33,329 nt of DNA from Myxococcales bacterium (GTDB lineage: Bacteria; Myxococcota_A; Polyangia; Polyangiales; Polyangiaceae), in NCBI GenBank assembly GCA_013297655.1, contig JAAFHV010000083.1:1-33329 (forward strand), given 5' to 3'. The notes under the pieces were generated by a model. The model worked only from the letters and a program-made list of their open reading frames with translations. It had not been told where the DNA came from and searched no databases. The position numbers and the translations under genes were made by a program. Positions within the stretch are counted from its first letter, which is position 1, and each line of letters opens with the position of its first letter. Below are positions 3,719-23,787 of the stretch, piece by piece.

Positions 3719-5158
3719 TTATTGCCAGTACGATTCGACGCGGACCGTCCCGCGGAAGATTTCTGTCGCCGTCGCCGTGCCGATCGGGACCTTCAAAATG
3801 ATGTGGACGAACTCTCCCGGGTTGACCACCAAGGGCTCGAAGTTGGCGACCACGGGAGCCGCCACACCGCCGACCGGCGCCGCGACCTGGAGGGCCTGAA
3901 TGCCTAGCGCGATGCGGCGCGGCGCCTTCGTGGCCGCACCTTCCGCGGTGGCCAGAGAAACGGCCGTGGAGCCGATGCCCAGCGACCACTGTAGGACCGT
4001 TGCGGTAGTCGCGACCGCGACCACCGTGTTGAACGTGTCGATCGAGACGCCGGTGATGTAGAGCTGGCGCCCCGTGATGGCCGCCGTCGCTGCCGGCACC
4101 TGATAGGCGAAGAGCGCGAAGTCCGTTTCCGCTCCGGCCGGCGCCGCGAACTGGAATTGCCCGCCGAGGGTGGTGTAACCGGCAGCGGTGTTCGAGAGCG
4201 TCGCCGTCGCGGGGGCGGCAGAGTTGGCCATGTTGGCCGTCGAGCCCTGGGTCATACCCGAGGCGCCCTGGATGCCCATAAGGCCCATGCCGGCCATCTG
4301 CGCCGACCAGGGTTTGCTCGAGTGGAAGTCGGCAAGGCTGACCGTGATGTCAGACACGCGCACGCCGGTCGCCGTCGACGGCGCCGAGGCCTTGTTGTAG
4401 ACGCGGGCGGCGATGGGGGTAGACCCGCTAGCGAGCGGCTGCCCGTTCGCAGATGGGATCGCCAGCGTCGCCATAAGCACGTCGTCGATCCAGAATTCCA
4501 CCGTGCGCTCGCCAACAGCGACTAGGTATTTGTGCATCACGTTGAACGAAGGGAGCGCAGCAAATGCCGCGGTCGCCGTTTCGCTCGCGTTGTTGCACGC
4601 GACGCCGGTCATCACGCCATCGTTGATCCTGAAAAACACGCCATCGAGCAGCGCCGCCGTCGTCGCCGCGGCGACATCGAAGAAGCCGATTTCGATCACG
4701 GTGTTCGTGACGGGTACCGCGGTGTGGAGCGCCGTGACCTCGCCGTAAAGGGTGCCCGCGCCGTACACGGGATATCGTGCATACGACTTGAGCATCGCGC
4801 CCGTGGATAGGGTCGTGATGTTCGTGCCGTTCAGGAGCGCGCCGGATTGGTTGTTGACCACCGTCATGGTCGTGAGGATGTGCGCCCAGTTCCCCGAGTT
4901 CTGCGCCGCGGCGTTGAACGTCTCCGACATCAGCAGCGTATCGATGCCCGTGCGAAGTCGGTAATCGTTCGACGTCTCAGGGGACCTGAGGGTTACCGCG
5001 CCGGTAATGATCCCCGGGTCGTTCTCGGAGAACATCCGAACGCCGCCGATATTGGCCGGCGTTTGAGTGAGCGCGACGCATACGGGGTTGCCGTCCGCGT
5101 CCGCCTTAACTTCCGCGGTGAGACCAGACCCGCCGCCCTCGAATCGAATGCCGCCCAT
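3719..5158 (-). CDS. Large virion-surface/fibre-like protein with lectin-like segment
   Basis: A 479-residue protein rich in Ala, Thr, Gly and Val. Residues about 75-290 resemble a concanavalin/LamG-like beta sandwich: an ETFN opening strand, GVFFRINDG in the middle, and VEFWIDDVLMATL (220-232), which is typical of such folds. A glycine/methionine-rich linker follows (MAGMGLMGIQGASGM, about 287-301), then a second beta-rich domain ending in PGEFVHIILKVP. I have seen similar uncharacterised proteins in environmental phages, and I infer a receptor-binding or surface protein. It has a good AGGAGAG ribosome-binding site before the ATG at 5158. Its place at the 3' end of the fibre cluster fits. 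The exact location on the virion is unknown. Confidence 0.6.
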   Translation of the reverse strand: MGGIRFEGGGSGLTAEVKADADGNPVCVALTQTPANIGGVRMFSENDPGIITGAVTLRSPETSNDYRLRTGIDTLLMSETFNAAAQNSGNWAHILTTMTVVNNQSGALLNGTNITTLSTGAMLKSYARYPVYGAGTLYGEVTALHTAVPVTNTVIEIGFFDVAAATTAALLDGVFFRINDGVMTGVACNNASETATAAFAALPSFNVMHKYLVAVGERTVEFWIDDVLMATLAIPSANGQPLASGSTPIAARVYNKASAPSTATGVRVSDITVSLADFHSSKPWSAQMAGMGLMGIQGASGMTQGSTANMANSAAPATATLSNTAAGYTTLGGQFQFAAPAGAETDFALFAYQVPAATAAITGRQLYITGVSIDTFNTVVAVATTATVLQWSLGIGSTAVSLATAEGAATKAPRRIALGIQALQVAAPVGGVAAPVVANFEPLVVNPGEFVHIILKVPIGTATATEIFRGTVRVESYWQ

Positions 5159-12552: not shown

Positions 12553-12842
12553 GTGCCCTCCGGAAGCGCCGCGCGGTCGCCTGTTGCAAGCCACCGAAGG
12601 GCCTTCTCGATGTTCTCGCGAGTCGTCGGAGCGCCCATGATAATAGGCGCGTCCGTGCGCTTCTCGCCCCACAAAACCTCACCGTCCGCGCCGAGCCAGA
12701 TCGTGAGCTTTCGCTCTCCAGCCCAGCACTCGAAAAGCGGGTCGCCACTTCCGTCGATGCAGTGGTGCGGACTCGGAAAGCCAGCCTCTGCAAAGAGCGC
12801 GAGGACAGACTCGACAGTGAGCGGTTCCATCGTCGTGCTCAT
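12549..12842 (-). CDS. Hypothetical protein inside the baseplate cluster
   Basis: A 97-residue soluble protein: a helix (TVESVLALFAEAGFPSPHHCIDG), strands (PLFECWAGERKLTIWLGADGEVLWGEKR) and a final helix (TTRENIEKALRWLATGD). This alpha/beta pattern is that of a small cytoplasmic protein and not of a tail component. It is coupled to the DUF5664-like gene upstream and the spike-like gene downstream by four-base overlaps. I recognise no family. With its upstream neighbour it may be an accessory cargo pair. Confidence 0.6.
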   Translation of the reverse strand: MSTTMEPLTVESVLALFAEAGFPSPHHCIDGSGDPLFECWAGERKLTIWLGADGEVLWGEKRTDAPIIMGAPTTRENIEKALRWLATGDRAALPEGT

Positions 12843-13138
12843 GGGTAATACAGTTCGAGGAGGAAAAGGAGGTTGCAGGCCGCGTGCGCGATGTGGGGGA
12901 GGCCGCTCTTTGCGTCGCGCTCCTCACCCTTGGCGTGCGCAAAGACGTGCCGAAGGACCGCGTCCCAGTAGCGCGACTTGCCATCGGCGAGGGAGGCCCA
13001 CTGGTTCGCGCCGTCTCCGTATTCGCGCACCGCGTACTCCCGTACGGCGATGACGTGTTCCAACGCGCGGAACGGGAGGAGCGACGGGCGCTGCTTGCCC
13101 TCGTCGGACTTGATGACGACCGGTTTCGCTCGGCTCAT
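12839..13138 (-). CDS. DUF5664-like protein (dATP/dGTP pyrophosphohydrolase N-terminal-like)
   Basis: A 99-residue helical protein. The sequence PSLLPFRALEHVIAVREYAVREYGDG, then RYWDAVLRHVFAHAKGEERDAKSGLPHIAHAACNLLFLLEL, is the signature of the phage family known as DUF5664, which I recall being linked to dATP/dGTP diphosphohydrolases of the MazG-like all-alpha type. The Glu and Asp residues in the helices and the His of SGLPHIAHA would suit metal-dependent nucleotide handling. A role in shaping the dNTP pool is possible but not established for stand-alone members. It is oddly placed among baseplate genes. The ATG at 13138 overlaps the hub gene's stop. Confidence 0.75.
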   Translation of the reverse strand: MSRAKPVVIKSDEGKQRPSLLPFRALEHVIAVREYAVREYGDGANQWASLADGKSRYWDAVLRHVFAHAKGEERDAKSGLPHIAHAACNLLFLLELYYP

Positions 13139-13797
13139 TGTACGAGGACCTCGACTCTCAATTTGCCATCCTCCCCGAGGGTGATACCCGTGTGTGCGAT
13201 CGATAGCACATCGGGGAACGTCGGGCCCGCGAACGTGCGCCCCGGCATCCAATCCTGCGGCGCCTCGGTCGACACTCGCAGCCGCCCGTTGGCCCCGTCC
13301 CGCGACTCCACGGCGAAGGGCGAGGTGATCGGCCCCGTCGCTCGAGCGGACAGGTAGGTCACCCCGTCGAGGCCCACCCACCAAAGCGGCCCCCCCACGT
13401 CTCGCAGGACACGGACGGCCTGCGCCGCGGGGCGCGTGTAGTGCAGTCCCACCGTGGCCGTCGTGTCGAACCCCGCGACCGTCTCGCCGCACTCCCGCGC
13501 GACGTCGCCGAGCACCGTCGCGAGGCGCACGCCCGCCGCGTTGGCGTACCCCAGCGGCCCCACCGTCTGCCGCCATCCGCCGTAGCCACCCACGAGGCCC
13601 GCCCCGCGAGAGCCCGCGAGAACGCCCTGCCGCGTGACCGCGCAGACCATCGTCATCGGGCCGAGAACGAACGTCCCGCGCTCTGCGATCGTCTCGTCCG
13701 TGCCGAGGACGATGTCCGCGGCCGGCGCACCGTAGTAGGGGATCGAGACGTACGCCGACAGCACGCGCCGTCCGCCCCATGAGGCGTAGGTGGTCAT
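13135..13797 (-). CDS. Baseplate hub-like tail protein
   Basis: A 220-residue beta-rich protein that follows the post-tape-measure protein and precedes the spike region, where Mu gp44 or P2 gpD-type hub proteins lie. Visible features are strands such as YVSIPYYGAPAADIVLG, TFVLGPMTMVCAVTRQGVLAGSRGAGLVGGYGGWRQTVG, then AAGVRLATVLGDVARECGETV, and a WWVGLDGVTYLS strand. The pattern fits known phage hub-like hypotheticals; no classic motif proves it. The ATG at 13797 overlaps the upstream stop (ATGA), so a longer upstream extension is rejected. Confidence 0.6.
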   Translation of the reverse strand: MTTYASWGGRRVLSAYVSIPYYGAPAADIVLGTDETIAERGTFVLGPMTMVCAVTRQGVLAGSRGAGLVGGYGGWRQTVGPLGYANAAGVRLATVLGDVARECGETVAGFDTTATVGLHYTRPAAQAVRVLRDVGGPLWWVGLDGVTYLSARATGPITSPFAVESRDGANGRLRVSTEAPQDWMPGRTFAGPTFPDVLSIAHTGITLGEDGKLRVEVLVQ

Positions 13798-14357
13798 GGC
13801 TTTTGCGCCTGCGCGAGCAGCTCTGCGATTTGCTTTTGCTGCGCGTCGGCGATCGGATCGTCGCTGAGGGGATAGCGCCCCTCGACGGTCTCGGGGGCGA
13901 GCGGGTTTTTGGGACCTGTCGGCGTCACCGTCGCGTTCTTTTTGGGCGCCGGGACCCACTCGCGGAATGAGAACGACGCGACGTAGAGGCCCTTACCCTT
14001 GTGCGTGGGAGGGGTGAATTTGAGCGACACGACGTCGAGGACGCCGGTCGCCGAGACGCTCGGGTAATAGAGCTTGAGGGGGGACGCGGCCGTCTTGTCC
14101 GTGTTGTATCCGGCAGCCTTGGCGAACGCTTCCCACTCGTCAAAGTGGGTCGCCAGCCAAAGCGCGCACTCGAACGCTCCCTCAGCCAGCTCTTGCCCCG
14201 TGTGCGTCTGGCTCGCTTTCTTCGCGCCCTTCGCGGTCTTCGCGTCCCACTTCCACACTTGGTCCCATCCGGACACCGCGGTCACGATTCCCGGGTTGGG
14301 AATCGTGCCGAGCCGGAAGCGATGCCATGCCTCGGGGTAGTCGATCGGGTTGATCAT
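13794..14357 (-). CDS. Tail protein following the tape measure (distal tube/hub candidate)
   Basis: A 187-residue protein. The first part reads FRLGTIPNPGIVTAVSGWDQVWKWDAKTAKGAKKASQTHTGQELAEGAFECALWLATHFDEWEAF, a mix of short strands and helix, followed by VLDVVSLKFTPPTHKGKGLYVASFSFREWVP strands and a disordered Pro/Gln-rich tail. Its place straight after the tape measure and before the hub-like gene suggests a distal-tail or hub component such as a tail-tube connector. It overlaps both neighbours by four bases. No named family is recognised. Confidence 0.55.
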   Translation of the reverse strand: MINPIDYPEAWHRFRLGTIPNPGIVTAVSGWDQVWKWDAKTAKGAKKASQTHTGQELAEGAFECALWLATHFDEWEAFAKAAGYNTDKTAASPLKLYYPSVSATGVLDVVSLKFTPPTHKGKGLYVASFSFREWVPAPKKNATVTPTGPKNPLAPETVEGRYPLSDDPIADAQQKQIAELLAQAQKP

Positions 14358-16159
14358 GCGCCGAGCCCTTGCTGCGCCGCGACGCGCTCGAATAGGACGG
14401 TAACGGCTTGCTCCGTGAGCTCGGAGACGGAAGCGCTCGAGCCGCCCTGGATGACGATGGCGCCCGCCTCGACGGTGACGTTGACCCCGCCGCCGCCGCT
14501 TGCGCCCGGAGGTGCGCCCGGCATCGGAGCCGCCGCGACCGCCTCGACCGCCGACGTGGCCATCCCCGTGCTCGCGTTCTCGACCGCGCCGACGCTGCCA
14601 TCAAGGCCGAGCGCGACACCCTCGCCCATGTTGGCGCCGAACCCCGCCATGACGGTGGATGGGGAGTTGATGCCGAGGGCCGCCTTGAACGAGGAGCCCG
14701 CCTTGTCGGCGAGGTTCTTGACCGCGGCCACGACCTTCGCGCCGCCGTCCGTGATGCCCTGCACGAGACCGTTAATAAAGTCCATAGCGTACTTCGGGCC
14801 GTTTAGCGCCCAGTCTGCCATGACGTTGATCATCTCGTTTACGGCGACGCTGATAGCCACGGCCAGCGCGGCGATCATTGCGATCGTGATGACGACCGTC
14901 GCGATCAGTGCCCACCCGATGGCCATGAGTACCCCCATGACGATCCCCAGGGCCATCAGCCCGGCCTTTAGTTCCGCAATGATGGCGACGCCCTCTTCTG
15001 ACTCGGCAAACGCCTTGATCTGCGCTGCCACCTGCTTAAGCGCGATGTAGGCCTGCAATCCGTAGATAATCAGGTCTAGGAAGAAGCGCTTTACGTAGGG
15101 CACGCCCTTCGCCATCAGGTCGAAAACCTTCTGGAAGAAGGCGCCGATGCCGGCCTTGAGCGCCTGCCCGCTCGGGGTGGCCTGGTCGAGGATACCGAAG
15201 AGCGCCTTTACCTCTTTCAAAAACGGCTCGATCTTGATGTCCTCGAAGAACTTCCCGACCGACTCCTTCGCGCGCGCCCACATGTTGCCGAGGTCGAGCG
15301 CCGCATCCGCGACCGGATCCGCCCCCTTTTCCACGAGCGCGTTGGTGAGCGCGTCGCCGAATTTCTTCGCGTCGACGCTCCCGTTTTCGAGCTGCTTGGA
15401 GAGCGCCGCGGCCGAGAGACCCATGCGCTTCGCGACGTCATCGACCTTGAGCCCCATGCTCGCGAGCGAGCCGAGACCCTTGAGCGGAATCTTGAGCGCC
15501 TGCCCGGTCTGCTGGGCGGTGGCGATCTTTTTATACATCTGCTCGAACGCCTCGCCGCCGCCCTTGGCCATGGCCGAAGCGCTGACCGCCGCGAGCGTGA
15601 GGGCCTCGAGGTGGTCGGTCGACGTCGCGAACGCGCCGAAGCCCTGGGCCACCTTGGCGAGCTGGTCGCGCGTCTGCCCCGTAGCCTCGCCGAGTCGGTC
15701 GAACATCGCGACCGCGTCCTCGCCGGTACCCACGCCCTCGAGCAAGACATCGAAGAGCAGGATCATGTCGCCCTTCGCATCCGCCGCGGACAGCGCGAGG
15801 TTGATGCCTGCGAGCACGAGCGACGCCATCACGGCGCCTACCGCGAGGACCGCGGCGCCGAGCGCCTTCGCTCCGCTGAGCGCGAGTTCGCCCGCCTTCT
15901 CCATCGCGCCCGCGAAAGCCTTCGCCTCGACGTTCGCCTCGACGAGCGCGGGCGGCACGGCATCGATCGCACTCTTGTACGCGGCGACGTTGGCGGTGGC
16001 TTTCTGGAAGCCCTTCACGTCGCCGAGGGCAGACGCGCGCACGAGAGCAGCCTCCGCGGACGCGAGGCCCTTGGCCAGCACGGCAACCTCGTCGGCGGCC
16101 TTCTTCGCCTCCGCGCCGAGGTTGCCGTCCATGTTGATCGTCTCGGTGTAGACCGCCAT
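14354..16159 (-). CDS. Tail tape measure protein
   Basis: A 601-residue, mostly helical protein that sets tail length and is ejected with the DNA. It shows Ala/Lys/Glu-rich helices at the start, a hydrophobic stretch (about 80-125), GQTRDQLAKVAQGFGAFATSTDHLEALTLAAVSASAMAKGGGEAFEQMYKKIATAQQTGQ, which is typical of tape measures, several membrane-like segments in the middle (about 400-440), and the common C-terminal motif SSFKAALGINSPSTVMAGFGANMGEGVALGLDG. If helix length scales as usual, the tail would be roughly 90 nm. The ATG at 16159 overlaps the upstream stop (TGATG). Confidence 0.9.
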   Translation of the reverse strand: MAVYTETINMDGNLGAEAKKAADEVAVLAKGLASAEAALVRASALGDVKGFQKATANVAAYKSAIDAVPPALVEANVEAKAFAGAMEKAGELALSGAKALGAAVLAVGAVMASLVLAGINLALSAADAKGDMILLFDVLLEGVGTGEDAVAMFDRLGEATGQTRDQLAKVAQGFGAFATSTDHLEALTLAAVSASAMAKGGGEAFEQMYKKIATAQQTGQALKIPLKGLGSLASMGLKVDDVAKRMGLSAAALSKQLENGSVDAKKFGDALTNALVEKGADPVADAALDLGNMWARAKESVGKFFEDIKIEPFLKEVKALFGILDQATPSGQALKAGIGAFFQKVFDLMAKGVPYVKRFFLDLIIYGLQAYIALKQVAAQIKAFAESEEGVAIIAELKAGLMALGIVMGVLMAIGWALIATVVITIAMIAALAVAISVAVNEMINVMADWALNGPKYAMDFINGLVQGITDGGAKVVAAVKNLADKAGSSFKAALGINSPSTVMAGFGANMGEGVALGLDGSVGAVENASTGMATSAVEAVAAAPMPGAPPGASGGGGVNVTVEAGAIVIQGGSSASVSELTEQAVTVLFERVAAQQGLGA

Positions 16160-16386
16160 CACTGGCCACCCTTTCGCGCGTAGTAGGCTCGCTCGGCCGC
16201 GGTCATTCCGTCATCGCCCGGCGCGGTGGGGGGAGGCGCGGTGTTGCGGATCTTGGTCCGCGCGATGGCGCGCCACCAGATGAGCGACTCGGACACCAGC
16301 TCGCGGGCAGCGATGGCCTCGTCGCTCGAATCTCCGCGCATCATGCCCGCCAGGCCTTCGCCGAGCGCTACCGCGTCCCCCGCCAT
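16159..16386 (-). CDS. Downstream tail-chaperone frame (frameshift extension or small separate protein)
   Basis: A 75-residue frame if started at the ATG at 16386 (MAGDAVALGEGLAGMMRG ... AERAYYARKGGQ). The same frame stays open upstream into the end of the preceding gene, reaching 16491. That is the arrangement of lambda G/GT-type tail assembly chaperones, in which a -1 shift joins the two frames just before the tape measure. There is no good Shine-Dalgarno before the ATG, which favours frameshift expression. The residues (ARELVSESLIWWRAIARTKIR, PPPTAPGDDGMTAAERAYYA) suit the T part of such chaperones. A stand-alone small protein remains possible. Confidence 0.55.
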   Translation of the reverse strand: MAGDAVALGEGLAGMMRGDSSDEAIAARELVSESLIWWRAIARTKIRNTAPPPTAPGDDGMTAAERAYYARKGGQ

Positions 16387-16406
16387 ACGCTCGCGGAGGG
16401 CGCCGA

Positions 16407-16745
16407 CTATTTTCGGTGTTCGTCGATCACGCCACCGGAGAACTCGGTGAACGTGTCGCTCGTTAGCGCGGCCCCGGCGCTCGCGGGCCATCGCGCGATC
16501 TGCTGCTCCACTGCGCCGCGATCCGGATAGACCGTGATGGCGCGAAGGAGGAGGCGATTCGCCTCGAGCGTCTTGCCGCGCTTGACCTCCGCGGAGTAGC
16601 TCGAAAGCTCGTGCGCGGTGGGGCGACGGATGACGTAGACGAAGGGCGCTTTCTCGGGCCCGAGCAGCGCGGCGACGCCGTCATGCTCGGAGTCGAGAGC
16701 GGCGAGGCGCTCCTCGTCGGGGGGTAGTGTCGGCTCGAATTTCAC
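16407..16745 (-). CDS. Tail assembly chaperone candidate (G-like)
   Basis: A 112-residue soluble protein starting at a GTG (16745) that overlaps the stop of the small upstream gene. Features: an acidic N-terminus (LPPDEERLAALDSEHDGVAALLG), then APFVYVIRRPTAHELSSYSAEVKRGKTLEANRLLLRAITVYPDRGAVEQQIARWP, a pattern seen in tail chaperones and related proteins encoded between the tube and tape-measure genes. It ends at a TAG preceded by CGA-AAA; a -1 slip there would enter the next frame. Such proteins coat and recruit the tape measure during tail assembly. Confidence 0.65.
   Translation of the reverse strand: MKFEPTLPPDEERLAALDSEHDGVAALLGPEKAPFVYVIRRPTAHELSSYSAEVKRGKTLEANRLLLRAITVYPDRGAVEQQIARWPASAGAALTSDTFTEFSGGVIDEHRK
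16410..16416 (-). promoter_or_regulatory. Candidate -1 frameshift slip site
   Basis: On the coding strand the sequence CCGAAAA immediately precedes TAG, with AAA in the last sense codon. The -1 frame from this point is open to 16159. The site is not a canonical X-XXY-YYZ heptamer, because the P-site codon would re-pair imperfectly, so efficiency would be low or would need a stimulator. No clear downstream hairpin was identified by eye. Confidence 0.35.
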
Positions 16746-16951
16746 TTGGCCACCTCCTTCGCGACCATCGCGCGCACGGCGGCGTCCTTGGCCTCGAGCA
16801 GCTTGCGAAGAGCGACGGTGCGTTCGGGGTTCCGAGGCAGGGTGAGGACGTGGCGGGCCATCTCGGCGAACGGCGCACTCACGGCCTTAAGGTGGGGCGG
16901 CAGGTGCTCGAAGGCAAAGAACTGCTCGATGTGCTCGGTGACGTTGTCCAT
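16742..16951 (-). CDS. Acb2/Tad1-hairpin-like protein, candidate cyclic-nucleotide sponge
   Basis: A 69-residue all-helical protein: IEQFFAFEHLPPHLKAVSAPFAEMARHV, then TLPRNPERTVALRKLLEAKDAAVRAMVA. The aromatic-rich start, the LP(P)xHL turn, the [L]PRNPERTVALRKLLEAKDAAVRA helix and the size fit the family of small helical hairpins that includes Acb2, a phage protein that binds cyclic nucleotides and blocks CBASS and Thoeris signalling. That function is known for characterised relatives only; here it is inferred. It lies between the tube and chaperone genes, matching the habit of such genes to sit among structural genes. The ATG at 16951 is preceded by GAGGGAACC; the 3' end overlaps the next gene. 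Confidence 0.6.
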   Translation of the reverse strand: MDNVTEHIEQFFAFEHLPPHLKAVSAPFAEMARHVLTLPRNPERTVALRKLLEAKDAAVRAMVAKEVAK

Positions 16952-17023
16952 GGTTCCCTCGTTTGAAATGGTGCCGCGGGGGCCTCAGGTGGTCACCCCG
17001 CAGCACCACTCACCTAGCACGAA

Positions 17024-17512
17024 TCACGTCGGTTGTGCCAACGGCTCCGCGAGGTCGTCGAGGCCGCAGAACTTGATCTTCAACGGCTTCAAATCGATCT
17101 TCACGACCGAGGCATCAGCGCCCTGCGCGCCGCCCGATCCGCTCGAGTCGAAGTGGCATCCCAAGAGCTCGTCCGTCACCGTCTCGAACCCGTTCAGGCC
17201 CCACGTGATGAGCAGCGAAAACGGCGCGTCGCCGTACCCCGCGCCGAACGTGGAGAGGAGAAGGTTGAACTCGGCGCGGTAGCACTCCATCGAAGCGGAG
17301 TAGCTGTTCTCGCCGAGCGTCATCGCGATCGGATCGGGATGGTTCGCGCGCACCTCGCCGCGGTCGCGGGTGCGCTCGTAGTCGATGCTCTTGAGGAACA
17401 TCTTGATGTCCGGCACCTCGACCTCTGAACCCGTGCTTTTGAACACGAACTTCATGGACGAGAACGCGTGCCGGAGGCCGTTGATCAGGGGGAATTCGAG
17501 TACGTCGGTCAT
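17024..17512 (-). CDS. Tail tube protein
   Basis: A 162-residue protein directly downstream of the sheath, as in contractile-tailed phages. The sequence reads as the two-sheet tube fold with N-terminal LEFPLINGLRHAFSSMKFVFKSTGSEVEVPDIKMFLKSIDYERTRDRGEVRANHPDPIAMTLGENSYSASMECYRAEFNLLL; the 'G ... YSASMECYRAEF' strand is characteristic of tube proteins. The C-terminal third includes a SSGSGGAQGADAS loop and a VVKIDLKPLKIKF strand. Hexamers would stack inside the sheath to form the DNA channel. No signal or membrane span. Confidence 0.8.
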   Translation of the reverse strand: MTDVLEFPLINGLRHAFSSMKFVFKSTGSEVEVPDIKMFLKSIDYERTRDRGEVRANHPDPIAMTLGENSYSASMECYRAEFNLLLSTFGAGYGDAPFSLLITWGLNGFETVTDELLGCHFDSSGSGGAQGADASVVKIDLKPLKIKFCGLDDLAEPLAQPT

Positions 17513-17520
17513 GTTCTACC

Positions 17521-18996
17521 TCAGCTCGCGAGCCCGATGGTCGCGTTGATCTGGCGCACGTAGCCCTTGCCGTAGAGCGTCGCGGCGATGTTGACTTGCT
17601 CGGTCGTGCGCACGTTGTTGGTTCGGTCCACCACGACCACGACGCCGGGAGCGGACAGCATGCCCGTGTTCAGCATCTGCTCGTTCATGGCGTTACGTAT
17701 GCGCGTCTCGATTTGCTGGGCGGCGCCCTCGTCGATCGTGCCGTTCGTGTTGAGGGGGATGTCCTCGTTGATCTCGTCGGTGCCGAGCTGGGTGAGCAGC
17801 GTGCACCCGATGTCCATCACGATGCCCTTGGGGAGCAAGTTGAACACCGAGCCCGCGGGCGACATCAGGAACGGGTTACTGATGAAGAACCCCGGCTTGC
17901 CCTTGCGGGTGCGGCACGTCGTGAAGCGCGCGACGTCGAGCGAGGGGTTCGCCTCCTCGTCGTGGTAGATGAAACCATCCGTCGGGTCGTTGGTGGGGTC
18001 CACCACGATCTGAGGGAGAGCTCCGTCGCGAACGCGCGAGGCGAGGCGCTGGGCGGGGATGACCACCTGGCGGCACGCGAGCGCGAAGAGCGCGGGGCGG
18101 CGCATGATGGGCACGCCCGCGGCGGCGACGGGGTACTGCGAGGTCATGTTGTAGTACCCGCCCGTGGCGAGGATGCGCGGGGCAGACACCGCGGAGTAGT
18201 CGAGCGCGATCGCAGCGGACCACGTCGCCTCGGTTTCGCCCGCGCCGCCGTATGCCACGGGGAGGGCCGCGTCACGCGAGGCGATCATCGCTCGAGTGAA
18301 GTTGTCGCCGTTCGCCAACGTGGTGAGGTAGCCCGCGAGCGTGGTCGCGTTGGCGCCCGTCCACACGCCCTGAATCACCATGCCGCCCCAGCCGGTCACC
18401 GCGTACGGGGACGCGGCAAGCGCGACGAGCGCGGCCTGGACGCCAGCGGCGGCGGCAAGCGGCTCGGTGCAGCCGAACGTGTGCGTCGAGCCGAGGAGGA
18501 ACGTACCCGCCGCGAAGTTCAGGGTGAGGTTGGTTCCCGTGATCGCGTAGGTGTTCGCGGTGCCGAGGCTGATCTCGGGGCCGTAGGTGCGCCCCGCGTC
18601 GAGCGAGATCCGGATCCGGATCCCCGTCGTGCCGATGGTGCCCGCGGCGGTGCATAGGACCTTCACGAGGTAGGCGTCGAACGGCGCGCCCGTGACGGTG
18701 ACGACCGAGGTTCCGGCGCCGGTCGGCACCACCGCGGAAGCCACGCCGGCCGAAGTCGTCGCCGCCTTGCAGAAAAGGACCGTTCCGCCCGCGGCGATGA
18801 TCATCGCGGCGAGGTCCACGGACGGGCCGTACCCTACCGCGGTGGCGAGCGTGTTGGCATTGCGCGTAGCCACGACCGTTGCCGCGGTGCCGCCGCTGCA
18901 CGTGCCGACCACCACGACCACGCTCTGCACGGGGACCGACACCACGCCGGCGCCACCGTCCAAAACCGTCAATTCTACATTTCCACTGGGAGGCAT
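17521..18996 (-). CDS. Tail sheath protein
   Basis: A 491-residue protein and the largest of the tail-tube cluster. N-terminal GNVELTVLDGGAGVVSVPVQSVVVVVGTCSGG is a typical sheath opening. The middle contains a large insertion-like domain (about 90-190), and the C-terminal half has SAPRILATGGYYNMTSQYPVAAAG, FTTCRTRKGKPGFFISNPFLMSPAGSVF and a final helix-strand segment (EQMLNTGMLSAPGVVVVVDRTNNVRTTEQVNIAATLYGKGYVRQINATIGL) typical of the contractile sheath C-terminal domain. It polymerises around the tube and contracts on infection. The adjacent tube gene confirms the role. Confidence 0.85.
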   Translation of the reverse strand: MPPSGNVELTVLDGGAGVVSVPVQSVVVVVGTCSGGTAATVVATRNANTLATAVGYGPSVDLAAMIIAAGGTVLFCKAATTSAGVASAVVPTGAGTSVVTVTGAPFDAYLVKVLCTAAGTIGTTGIRIRISLDAGRTYGPEISLGTANTYAITGTNLTLNFAAGTFLLGSTHTFGCTEPLAAAAGVQAALVALAASPYAVTGWGGMVIQGVWTGANATTLAGYLTTLANGDNFTRAMIASRDAALPVAYGGAGETEATWSAAIALDYSAVSAPRILATGGYYNMTSQYPVAAAGVPIMRRPALFALACRQVVIPAQRLASRVRDGALPQIVVDPTNDPTDGFIYHDEEANPSLDVARFTTCRTRKGKPGFFISNPFLMSPAGSVFNLLPKGIVMDIGCTLLTQLGTDEINEDIPLNTNGTIDEGAAQQIETRIRNAMNEQMLNTGMLSAPGVVVVVDRTNNVRTTEQVNIAATLYGKGYVRQINATIGLAS

Positions 18997-20013: not shown

Positions 20014-20409
20014 TCACCAGCCCCGCCGAAACGAGCTCACGACGACGGCGGAACCCTGGGAGGGCGTGGCAAGGGCGGGGGTCACGTCGAGATGGATCTC
20101 CCCACGCGATACGCCCTTGAGCCATGCCATCGCCTCCAGGTGACGGTTGAGGAGATTCACGTCCGCGCCGGCCGCGGGGTTGTATCCGCGAACCGAGAGG
20201 ACTTCGTACGTTGCGATCTTGCAGACCGCCTGTTTGAGGTCGGATCCCCACGTGGTGAGCGGCATCGCGTACCGCGAACGCATGAAGCCGTCCGCGATAC
20301 TCGATGCTGCCGTGAGCGCGTTCGTGAGCACGTCGGACGTGAGCGAGCCGAACGCCACGGCCGGCGCGCCGTACGTATACAGCTCGGCGATCGTGGCGTA
20401 CTGACTCAC
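20014..20409 (-). CDS. Head-tail connector, Mu gp36-like (DUF1320)
   Basis: A 131-residue protein. The start is a GTG at 20409 that overlaps the capsid stop (GTGA). ATIAELYTYGAPAVAFGSLTSDVLTNALTAASSIADGFMRSRYAMPLTTWGSDLKQAVCKIATYEVLSVRGYNPA matches the pattern of Mu gp36-type adaptor proteins: an N-terminal strand-helix, a helix with ASSIADGFMRSRYxxPL, and a helix with KxAxCxIAxYxLLxxRGxNP. It would connect the portal vertex with the tail. Position right after the major capsid gene is usual. A longer frame to 20553 lacks support. Confidence 0.8.
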   Translation of the reverse strand: MSQYATIAELYTYGAPAVAFGSLTSDVLTNALTAASSIADGFMRSRYAMPLTTWGSDLKQAVCKIATYEVLSVRGYNPAAGADVNLLNRHLEAMAWLKGVSRGEIHLDVTPALATPSQGSAVVVSSFRRGW

Positions 20410-21344
20410 GGCTTGCTCTTCAGCGCGAGGAACGGAAGGGTCACGTCCGCCACGCCTCGGCAGTCGATGCCGAAAAGGAACTGACGGTTGGAGAAGACGT
20501 TGTCGTCGTCCGGCTTGTTTTTGTACACGAACTGCGGCGCCTGACGCTGCCACCAGAGGAACGGCTTGATCGCCTTGCGATTGTCCAGGAGGTACCAGGC
20601 GGTGGGGTCGCTTTCGAGCTCGTCGATGACGAGCACTTCGGCGGCGCCCTTGTAGATGTTCGGCTCCGCGGCGACGTTGCCCGCGGCGCTCGAGCCCATC
20701 ACGAACGAGGCGAGGTAGTCGCTCGTCATGATGCGGTTCGCGACGTCCTCGAGCGAGGGCGGCACGACGAGGAGCGACGGGCGGATGCCCATCGGCTGAC
20801 CGTCACGGCCCTTGAATCCGCGCATCGCGGTTCGCGCGATACCGAAGTTCGGCGCGGTGAGCGCGAGCGCGAGGTTGTTGTCGTACGAGCCGAACGGGCC
20901 GCCCGTGCCCGCGTCGAGGTCGACGGGATGCGCGTCGTTGAAGAACGAGACGCCGTCGAACCCGGTCGGGTTGGCGAGGATGAGCTTTGCGATCTCGCGG
21001 TCGGCCCATTTCGCGGCCTGCTCGCCCATGAGCGAGACGGTCGGGCCGTAGAGCCCGAAAGTGTCGTCCTCGATGGCGTAGCGGTCCACGCCCACCGTCA
21101 ACTCGAACGGGTCTGGCGTCATGGTGCGGCCACGAAGCGCGACGTTGTTGATGTGGCGCGGGCCGACCCATTCGCGGAGGATCGGGATCTTGTCCATCCA
21201 GCCGTTCACGACGCTGGAGACGTTGCCGTACGTGGGCATCATGGCGAGCTTGGGAGCCCAAACCTCGGTCCCCTGGTAGGCCTGGGAGAAGGTGGCGCCG
21301 AAGCCGAAAAACATCGACGCGATGTTGGGGGGAGTGATTTCCAT
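20406..21344 (-). CDS. Major capsid protein, Mu gpT-like
   Basis: A 312-residue protein that builds the icosahedral shell. The start (MEITPPNIASMFFGFGATFSQAYQ) and KWADREIAKLILANPTGFDGVSFFNDAHPVD are hallmark segments of the Mu gpT family, followed by ALTAPNFGIARTAMRGFKGRDGQPMGIRPSLLVVPPSLE and NRKAIKPFLWWQRQAPQFV in the C-terminal half. The length is close to gpT (about 300). It lies downstream of the protease/scaffold and the decoration-like gene. There is no obvious N-terminal delta domain to be cleaved, consistent with a separate scaffold. Confidence 0.9.
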   Translation of the reverse strand: MEITPPNIASMFFGFGATFSQAYQGTEVWAPKLAMMPTYGNVSSVVNGWMDKIPILREWVGPRHINNVALRGRTMTPDPFELTVGVDRYAIEDDTFGLYGPTVSLMGEQAAKWADREIAKLILANPTGFDGVSFFNDAHPVDLDAGTGGPFGSYDNNLALALTAPNFGIARTAMRGFKGRDGQPMGIRPSLLVVPPSLEDVANRIMTSDYLASFVMGSSAAGNVAAEPNIYKGAAEVLVIDELESDPTAWYLLDNRKAIKPFLWWQRQAPQFVYKNKPDDDNVFSNRQFLFGIDCRGVADVTLPFLALKSKP

Positions 21345-22434: not shown

Positions 22435-23022
22435 TCAGTGCTTCGCCGCAGCGGCGGCCTTTTGTTTGGTGAACGCCTCGACCGAAAGGCCGAGCGCGCG
22501 GCGGACAACTTCGTCCGATGCGGAAAGTGTGGTGGCGTCCGCGGTCGGAGCCTTGGGGGCCGGGAGCGGCACGGGCGCGACGCCGGAAGCGGTGGCGAGG
22601 AAGCCGTCGAGGACCTTGCCGTCCACCGAGAGTGCCCAGGCTTTTTGCGCGGGGGCGAGCTTGCCGGCCTTGATCGCGCTCGCGACCTTGGCCTCGTGCG
22701 CCTTTTTCTTCCCGTCGCCTTCGAGCTTGGCGATGCGCGCGGAGAGGGTCTTCGCCTTCTTCGCCTCGGCGGCGAGAGCGTGGAGCGCTCCGATCTGCGC
22801 GGCGGGCGAACTCTGCCCGGTCAGCGAGCGGACCGCGGCGAGGATGTCGCGGCTCGAATGAGCGGAGGCTGCGGCGGCGGCCGGCTCTTCGTCGGCCTCC
22901 TCCTCCTCGTCGCCTTCGTCGGAGGGAGCCTCTTCGGTCTCGGCCTCCGCGTCGGGGTTCTCACCCTCGGCGTCGGGCTCGGTCTTCTCGTCCTCTGCCT
23001 TGGTGGTCTCTTCGTCTGCCAT
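22435..23022 (-). CDS. Nested scaffolding protein (internal in-frame start)
   Basis: The last 195 codons of the protease gene can be translated alone from the ATG at 23022 (residue 256 of the long form, MADEETTKAED). This ATG is preceded by GGAG with a six-base gap, a good Shine-Dalgarno, and lies exactly where the protease domain ends and the acidic scaffold begins. An ATG 12 bases earlier (23034) is less well placed. Mu (I/Z) and lambda (C/Nu3) make scaffold this way, so a free scaffold product is likely. The product would be very acidic and helical and would be removed from the prohead. Confidence 0.6.
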   Translation of the reverse strand: MADEETTKAEDEKTEPDAEGENPDAEAETEEAPSDEGDEEEEADEEPAAAAASAHSSRDILAAVRSLTGQSSPAAQIGALHALAAEAKKAKTLSARIAKLEGDGKKKAHEAKVASAIKAGKLAPAQKAWALSVDGKVLDGFLATASGVAPVPLPAPKAPTADATTLSASDEVVRRALGLSVEAFTKQKAAAAAKH

Positions 23023-23787
23023 GTTCGTCTCCATGCCCGTCAATCGGGCGATCAGTTGCGTTCGCGAGATCACCTCGTCGGCGAGCCCAGCATCCACCGC
23101 GTCTTGGCCCATGAGGCACGCGGCCTCGAGCGCTTGCACCTGCTCCGCGGTGAGCGGGCGCGACTCTGCGACGAGCCCGAAAAACTGCGCGCCGAGCTTG
23201 TCGATCGTGCCCTGCAACGTCGCGAGCGCGTCGTCGCTGAGAGGCACGCCAGGGTGCCCGTCCGCCTTGCGCGCGCCGGTCGTGAGCACCGCAACGCGTA
23301 TGCCTTCCTTGGCCATCAGCGCGGTGTATTCGGACACGACGCCGATCACGCCGACGCTGCCGACGCCGCCCGATTCGGGGACGGAGATGGTGCTAGCCAC
23401 GGTCGCGACCGCGTACGCCGCGGAGTACGCCGCCTCGTTGGCGAACGCGTGGACGACCTTGCCGTGCTTCGCTGCGAGCTCGCGCATCTCGTGGACGGCC
23501 GCGAAGCAGCCCGCGACGGTGCCGCCGCAAGAGTCGATGTCCAGGAGGATGGTGGACGCGTCCGTTTCGCACGCCGCGCGGAAGCGCGACACCACGTCAT
23601 CGTACCCGAGGCACCACCATGAGCCGCGTTGGTCGAGCGCGCCGTGGACGGTCACGATCGCGAGCGGTCCGATGCGTTCGGGGACGCTCGCGGATTCGAT
23701 CTCATCGAACAGCCAGCCGAAAGCCTCGGGTTTGATGGCGAGGGCCGAGCCTGCTCGAGCGGTGTAGCGGTGCGTGCGCGTCTTCAT
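22435..23787 (-). CDS. Head maturation protease (S49/SppA-like) with C-terminal scaffold
   Basis: A 450-residue protein. Residues about 40-250 form an S49-type protease: ILLDIDSCGGTVAG (79-93) as the oxyanion loop; AAYSAAY with the probable nucleophile Ser122; GGVGSVGVIGVVSEYTALMAKEGI and GARKADGHP with the likely catalytic Lys174. Residues from about 256 are a highly acidic, Glu-rich disordered stretch (about 256-310), then helices (LSARIAKLEGDGKKKAHEAKV) and a C-terminal capsid-binding-like tail, as expected for a scaffold. The Mu I/Z arrangement is analogous. The ATG at 23787 overlaps the portal stop by four bases. Confidence 0.85.
   Translation of the reverse strand: MKTRTHRYTARAGSALAIKPEAFGWLFDEIESASVPERIGPLAIVTVHGALDQRGSWWCLGYDDVVSRFRAACETDASTILLDIDSCGGTVAGCFAAVHEMRELAAKHGKVVHAFANEAAYSAAYAVATVASTISVPESGGVGSVGVIGVVSEYTALMAKEGIRVAVLTTGARKADGHPGVPLSDDALATLQGTIDKLGAQFFGLVAESRPLTAEQVQALEAACLMGQDAVDAGLADEVISRTQLIARLTGMETNMADEETTKAEDEKTEPDAEGENPDAEAETEEAPSDEGDEEEEADEEPAAAAASAHSSRDILAAVRSLTGQSSPAAQIGALHALAAEAKKAKTLSARIAKLEGDGKKKAHEAKVASAIKAGKLAPAQKAWALSVDGKVLDGFLATASGVAPVPLPAPKAPTADATTLSASDEVVRRALGLSVEAFTKQKAAAAAKH

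Follow-up and report, generated by a model that had tools for sequence, protein, structure and literature searches.

Acb2 soaks up bacterial immune signals: it binds cyclic di- or trinucleotides and blocks CBASS. Acb2 has been described as two long antiparallel helices preceded by a short N-terminal one, and Tad1 as a protein with an N-terminal beta-sheet domain before its hairpin (PMC12043709). T4 Vs.4 is a protein shown to sequester cGAMP; Y8, H11, K23, R79 and F82 are named as its contacts to the ligand, and changes in the hexamer interface (L29, A66, A73, A77) are reported to abolish inhibition (PMC10097602). The change of T68 to Met is stated to lower binding (PMC12657230). T4 Acb2 is also reported to trigger Panoptes (PMC12657230, PMC12657218). 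The reference proteins used here were T4 Vs.4 (PDB 7uq2, phrog_717) and the Pseudomonas phage Acb2 p26 (PDB 8h2j, 8ixz). Pfam has one model for Acb2 and Tad1, PF24729 (Acb2_Tad1_hairpin), with a curated cut-off of 27 bits; T4 Vs.4 matches this model at 7e-20 and phrog_1454 at 7e-4.

The locus considered here is a gene of 69 codons in the window, by which we mean the whole stretch of 33,329 nucleotides that was analysed, from a Myxococcales bacterium. It stands among tail genes in the order sheath, tube-like gene, 69-residue gene, then small genes and the tape measure:

17521-18996: tail sheath, DUF2586 (7.9e-17) and phrog_907
17024-17512, minus strand: tail-tube-like gene, the upstream neighbour, so named from its place after the sheath
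16966-17012, limits approximate, minus strand: strong RNA hairpin, placed in the gap of 72 bases that separates the tube-like gene from the Acb2-like one
16742-16951, minus strand: putative Acb2/Tad1-hairpin-like protein of the phrog_1761/phrog_5120 family, ATG to stop, 69 residues
16407-16745, minus strand: gene of 112 codons with a GTG start, without family match
14354-16162: tape measure, phrog_58 at 2.7e-14

The 69-residue gene exists as the sequence-only reading had described it, with the LPPHL turn and PRNPERTVALRKLLEAKDAAVRA (residues 39-61) found letter for letter, and a GAGGG lies 4 bases upstream of its ATG. Its end overlaps the GTG start of the 16407-16745 gene by 4 bases. From its position the product of the latter would be a tail assembly chaperone. 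This gene and the one at 16159-16491 (minus strand) share 85 bases but are read in different frames, with the second gene in -1, an arrangement known from tail assembly chaperones whose synthesis involves a frameshift; inspection by eye just before the first stop of the pair found no canonical slippery heptamer. In PHROGs the tube-like gene is best matched, weakly, by a head protein (E 0.014). The RNA hairpin has a minimum free energy of -40.8 kcal/mol, and one shuffled sequence in 200 does as well (z -3.41); a scan for a terminator-like T run or a promoter-like site found neither at this place; it could be an RNA-processing or attenuation element. Two further genes of the window, both on the minus strand, should be mentioned. 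A tail-module protein of 313 residues (12839-13780) carries a dATP/dGTP diphosphohydrolase N-terminal domain (PF18909, 1.2e-21) at residues 224-310, the rest being without a Pfam match at E <= 1. A protein of 450 residues with an SppA/ClpP-like protease domain (22435-23787) adjoins a portal-like gene and is perhaps the prohead protease.

Two PHROG families, both without an assigned function, are matched by the window protein: phrog_1761 (3e-25) and phrog_5120 (8.5e-18). It has no match in Pfam at E <= 1 (PF24729 included), nor any in PADLOC or NCBIfam. The family is widespread. A match at E <= 1 occurs in 322 of 50,697 phage records, and in 187 of these it spans 80% of the query or more; in IMG/VR at least 585 relatives were found at tblastn E <= 1e-3 among the 600 stretches examined, and in species genomes 191 of 349 stretches hold a relative. 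With so many relatives the gene is far more than a chance reading frame. The 80 listed of these 191 stretches come from genomes as different as those of Alphaproteobacteria, Vibrio, actinobacteria, planctomycetes and cyanobacteria; in a sample of the host's own phylum the family is rare (3 of 188 genomes, that of the window included). Among the phage records listed the annotation is either hypothetical or the name of something unrelated. The relative in Ochrobactrum phage vB_OspP_OH (MT028492), for instance, is called an anti-TRAP domain-containing protein, a name that perhaps belongs to an added part of the protein rather than to the hairpin-like domain. In titles and openings of abstracts on Acb2 and sponges, few of them from subscription papers, the family is not named, nor did its motif or its PHROG numbers lead to a mention.

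For comparison of profiles the family was represented by a set A1, which consists of the window protein and 61 of 80 loci of IMG/VR relatives (19 were left out by eye, with no strict rule), and by a set of 76 sequences in which A1 is joined by 14 annotated phages picked by hand for variety from the 322 records. In the alignment of this larger set F12, H16, A32, E43, the five residues R49 to E53 (R49, K50, L51, L52, E53), K55, D56 and R60 are invariant in 76 of 76, and the third helix is nearly frozen. Some relatives have N-terminal extensions of 58 to 91 residues before the hairpin (loci L009 and L310, which hold the same protein, L037, L356, L065 and L079); the extensions comprise several unrelated-looking sequences, and their start codons are uncertain. 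The idea that the one in L009/L310 is a Tad1-like beta domain was dropped for now because comparison with Pfam gave nothing, that with the PDB nothing meaningful, and that with phage proteins a single weak match. A Tad1-type N-terminal beta-sheet domain was likewise not found in the window protein, which has 69 residues and only helices in its model.

Four other sets were used: A2, the PF24729 type (46 of 80 loci kept); p26 (75 of 80, the five left out being cut by contig ends); Vs.4 (31 of 35); and A5, marked by FEYLKPT (33 distinct sequences of 56, with 8 cut or partial ones left out and the remainder identical). The A5 set, from loci L385 to L440, is a family of small proteins strongly related to the PF24729 type.

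The sequence-only reading had assigned the window protein to the Acb2/Tad1 hairpin family and had named a profile search as the check. Searched directly, the likeness stays below threshold: PF24729 is touched by 2 of 62 relatives in a list at E <= 10, the best at 0.062. In phage records this model was tried on six, one of which, Vibrio phage martha 12B12, gave a sub-cut-off match (20545-20649, E 0.0035) lying exactly over its family gene at 20533-20739. No PF24729 candidate was obtained in the record of L385, itself clearly homologous to A2, so the Pfam model looks narrow. Against p26 and Vs.4 the family scores no better than many shuffled profiles do (12 and 21 of 60 reach its score; 12 and 13 of 40 in a second run), and searches of PDB sequences with phmmer and with the A1 profile brought up nothing beyond weak similarity to helical chains that are unrelated or designed.

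The connection is found instead through intermediate families. In lists at E <= 10, phrog_1454 is matched by 53 of the 62 family members (best 5.9e-5; the window protein itself 0.13), and apart from it and their own families no PHROG family is matched by more than five of them. In the other direction, lists with the same limit show all 46 members of A2 matching phrog_1454 and 27 of them phrog_1761 (best 8.8e-4). In hhalign the 76-sequence family aligns with A2 at probability 69 and E 4.5e-5. Smaller runs of column shuffles against A2 had given 0 of 60 and 0 of 40 as good; since a larger run gave 2 of 500, our confidence in this link alone was lowered. It should be noted that the decoy control for this comparison had only four real decoy families, which score at most 10.9 against the family. 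The bridging family A5 is matched at probability 81 and E 1.2e-5, none of 200 shuffles being as good, and the alignment begins at the aromatic start and keeps its register until it is inside the third helix. A5 in turn matches A2 at probability 98 and E 1.1e-14 (0 of 200 shuffles), and A2 matches both Vs.4 and p26 with none of 60 shuffles as good in either case. A pooled profile of A2, p26 and Vs.4 lowers the hhalign probability to 10 (0 of 40 shuffles).

The profiles were also run against 5,399 open reading frames from the loci of relatives, among which the family has 148 members in all. With the A2 profile the family takes 128 of the best 148 places and 86 of the 148 members outscore every shuffled copy; the two best reading frames outside the family, an A5 protein and a hairpin-like protein, outrank most of it. 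With the pooled profile one member of 148 lies above the best shuffled copy. The Vs.4 and p26 profiles put no family member above the best unrelated reading frame, and the family takes only 27 and 14 of the best 148 places. The hairpin-like protein just mentioned, the second best outside the family (15.6 bits), is divergent and is encoded in locus L063 at about 4720-4989 on the plus strand, directly upstream of the family gene. The phage of locus L016 has an A5 protein about 3 kb from its family gene. These two cases, and there are only two, give hints of sets of sponges.

The model of the window protein has a mean pLDDT of 92.5 and helices at residues 7-12, 19-35 and 42-68, and judged on this order of helices, one short and two long, the predicted fold would be that of Acb2. 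In BFVD a protein named for the Acb2/Tad1 hairpin domain stands at rank 6 (E 0.022, probability 1.00), below the five closest relatives, and six rows so named are among the best 50 of 238. Against the PDB, Foldseek gave no match at E <= 0.001, and neither the best 50 of its 81 rows nor the best 50 rows of VIA contain Acb2, Vs.4 or Tad1. As a control we used a model of a PF24729-type protein, L096. For this one Foldseek puts Vs.4 first (E 0.44, probability 0.97), and VIA lists Vs.4, Acb2 and Tad1 (Z 4.4 to 6.5) in among helical chains that are unrelated. As only the control lists these three, of the two proteins it is that of the window which lies more distant from them, and it is thus a more remote cousin of the known sponges.

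The claimed kinship with Acb2 and Tad1 was thus upheld by way of A2, A5, the PHROG families and the predicted structures, but not as a direct match. Homology of the window protein to the Acb2/Tad1 hairpin superfamily is supported on these profile comparisons through A2 and A5, and we regard it as very probable. The best reading is that phrog_1761/phrog_5120 forms a sister family of the Acb2/Tad1 hairpin and is not a member by the Pfam threshold.

What the protein might do was judged from the residues that correspond to the contacts of Vs.4, mapped via alignments to the A2 profile, which are possibly off by one residue near the first turn. Y8 of Vs.4 falls on the aromatic residue 14 (Y in 60 of 76, F in 10) and R79 on R60 (76 of 76). 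K23 falls on S25, a Ser in 75 of 76, at a position which is K or R throughout the Acb2-type sets (31 of 31, 75 of 75 and 46 of 46). F82 corresponds to an aliphatic residue in the family; the p26 relatives have Ala here in 73 of 75 and so does A2. H11 has no placeable counterpart, the invariant H16 standing two and not three residues past the aromatic one. T68 corresponds to R49, and the printed rows of A5 also have Arg. The interface alanines A66, A73 and A77 of Vs.4 fall on A47 (65 of 76), A54 (74 of 76) and A58 (67 of 76). The simplest reading of this alignment is a pocket which would be related to that of Vs.4 and would take a changed ligand; because two or three of its contacts are not those of Vs.4, something other than 3'3'-cGAMP may be the ligand.

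The explanation we prefer takes the product for a small phage cargo protein that shares its ancestry with the Acb2/Tad1 hairpin domain yet stands in a family of its own. By a confident prediction it most likely folds into a short N-terminal helix and two long helices. Since Ala47, Ala54 and Ala58 align with the interface residues Ala66, Ala73 and Ala77 of Vs.4, it would probably form a hexamer through the second and third helices. A cyclic or other signalling nucleotide would probably be bound between subunits by means of aromatic residue 14 and Arg60, and the signal would thereby be kept from the defence effector of the host. This best explanation rests on the homology, the fold and the two contact residues that are kept. 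If the homology is granted, function as a sponge is likely; for the whole reading, a hexameric sponge of a nucleotide immune signal related to Acb2/Tad1 and with a changed pocket, our confidence is moderate and somewhat on the favourable side. A stronger version, in which the family would be a separate and unrecognised class of immune-signal sponge with a pocket for a signal other than 3'3'-cGAMP and cA3, is a tentative proposal which we would rather bet against, and the same applies to the pocket it would have, built from aromatic 14, His16, Ser25, Arg49, Lys55, Asp56 and Arg60.

The rival which survives best keeps the ancestry and the fold of the Acb2/Tad1 hairpin and lets the protein bind another protein or a different small molecule, for example as inhibitor of a host enzyme. 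The replacement of the pocket Lys/Arg by Ser speaks for it, as does the invariant block of R49 to E53, K55 and D56 which separates the family from A2, and no direct match exists to the functionally proven Acb2 proteins. The aromatic and Arg contacts are kept, however, and a surface that stays constant in phages of very different hosts would suit a constant small ligand better than varied proteins. We hold this rival to be unlikely.

The sequence-only reading had further argued from the tail genes around it that the protein is made together with the virion. A second rival is that the product is a tail morphogenesis protein, either a chaperone or a minor part of the virion. Its place between the tube-like and tape measure genes and the 4-base overlap with the next gene of the tail module agree with this. 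The neighbours were checked for 14 annotated phage relatives chosen for variety. One of the 14 stands among tail genes, with a minor tail protein gene on either side and lysis genes nearby, and this speaks for the rival too. The others do not show a conserved place in the tail module: one lies beside genes of nucleotide metabolism, some in head or terminase contexts (one flanked by a major capsid and a head-tail adaptor gene, one following a putative small terminase gene, and others), some in lysis contexts (between two lysin A genes, after a holin, and others), and further ones in stretches of mostly unassigned genes. In Myxococcus phage Mx4 a sheath related to that of the window is found at 30.8 kb and the family gene at 46.6 kb, beside a putative endolysin; the two are thus about 15 kb apart. 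We also compared 11 proteins from the tail region of the window with 177 loci, nearly all with relatives and reaching up to about 6 kb to each side (one carries a PF24729-type gene instead). The sheath, the tube-like gene and the two genes following it had no match there; a single match was found for the tape measure (4.7e-5), and three weak matches for the gene at 20014-20553. The gene order among tail genes hence stands as first described, but with only 1 of 14 annotated relatives in such a place the step from it to production with the virion is a weak one, and for the same reason the gene looks like cargo of the phage and not a part of the tail. A role in tail morphogenesis is in our opinion improbable.

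A third rival, that short amphipathic helices with much Ala, Leu and Glu have come to resemble Acb2 by convergence, is improbable as well. The 2 of 500 column-shuffled profiles as good against A2, the lack of a direct match to Vs.4 or p26 and the middling Z against many unrelated chains, helical hairpins being common, point that way. Against it stand the A5 alignment, which stays in register as described above and is equalled by 0 of 200 shuffles, the PHROG matches in both directions, the 86 of 148 members that beat all shuffled copies with the A2 profile, and the hairpin-like character of the two best unrelated-looking reading frames for that profile.

A domain search of the host assembly (546 contigs) for SMODS, ThsB TIR and Cas10 palm domains found none of them. 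This neither supports nor excludes a sponge function, since the phage may meet other hosts and the draft is possibly incomplete. If the family does sequester a nucleotide signal, hundreds of phage genes would gain a function at once and it would show which defence these phages meet; if it is a separate class as well, it would point to a signalling defence, or a variant of the signal, outside the reach of the known sponges. The strictly conserved surface makes the prediction of a sponge sharp and cheap to check.

Set beside the described proteins, the window protein resembles p26 in being small and helical and in having, close to where the last helix ends, an Arg that is conserved (75 of 75 in the p26 set); in contrast, the KIKGYRDLSQEE start of the p26 relatives is absent from the window family, and there is no direct profile match between the two. 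T4 Vs.4 is longer, 88 residues against 69, the hairpin of the window protein being the shorter one; K23 and F82 are not kept and a direct profile match is again lacking, whereas the aromatic contact and Arg79 are kept and three alanines of the hexamer interface align, by the mapping through A2. The A5 family (L016 and relatives), whose function is putative too, keeps the second-helix Arg and has MWVNVAITR in the third helix, unlike the window family; it is nevertheless the best profile match of that family, with an F-x-Y start, an LPxGPDK-type turn as in the distant members and, in the printed rows, an Arg aligned with R49. From the PF24729 type (A2, phrog_1454) the window family differs by RKLLEAKD and VRA where A2 has TKLEEAVMWANAAIAR, by the Ser which replaces the invariant second-helix Arg of A2 and by a score below the Pfam cut-off. 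The two have the same size and the same layout of helices, their profiles are akin both directly and via A5, and they share the conserved order F..Y, A, P, E, A, K-L-x-E-A.
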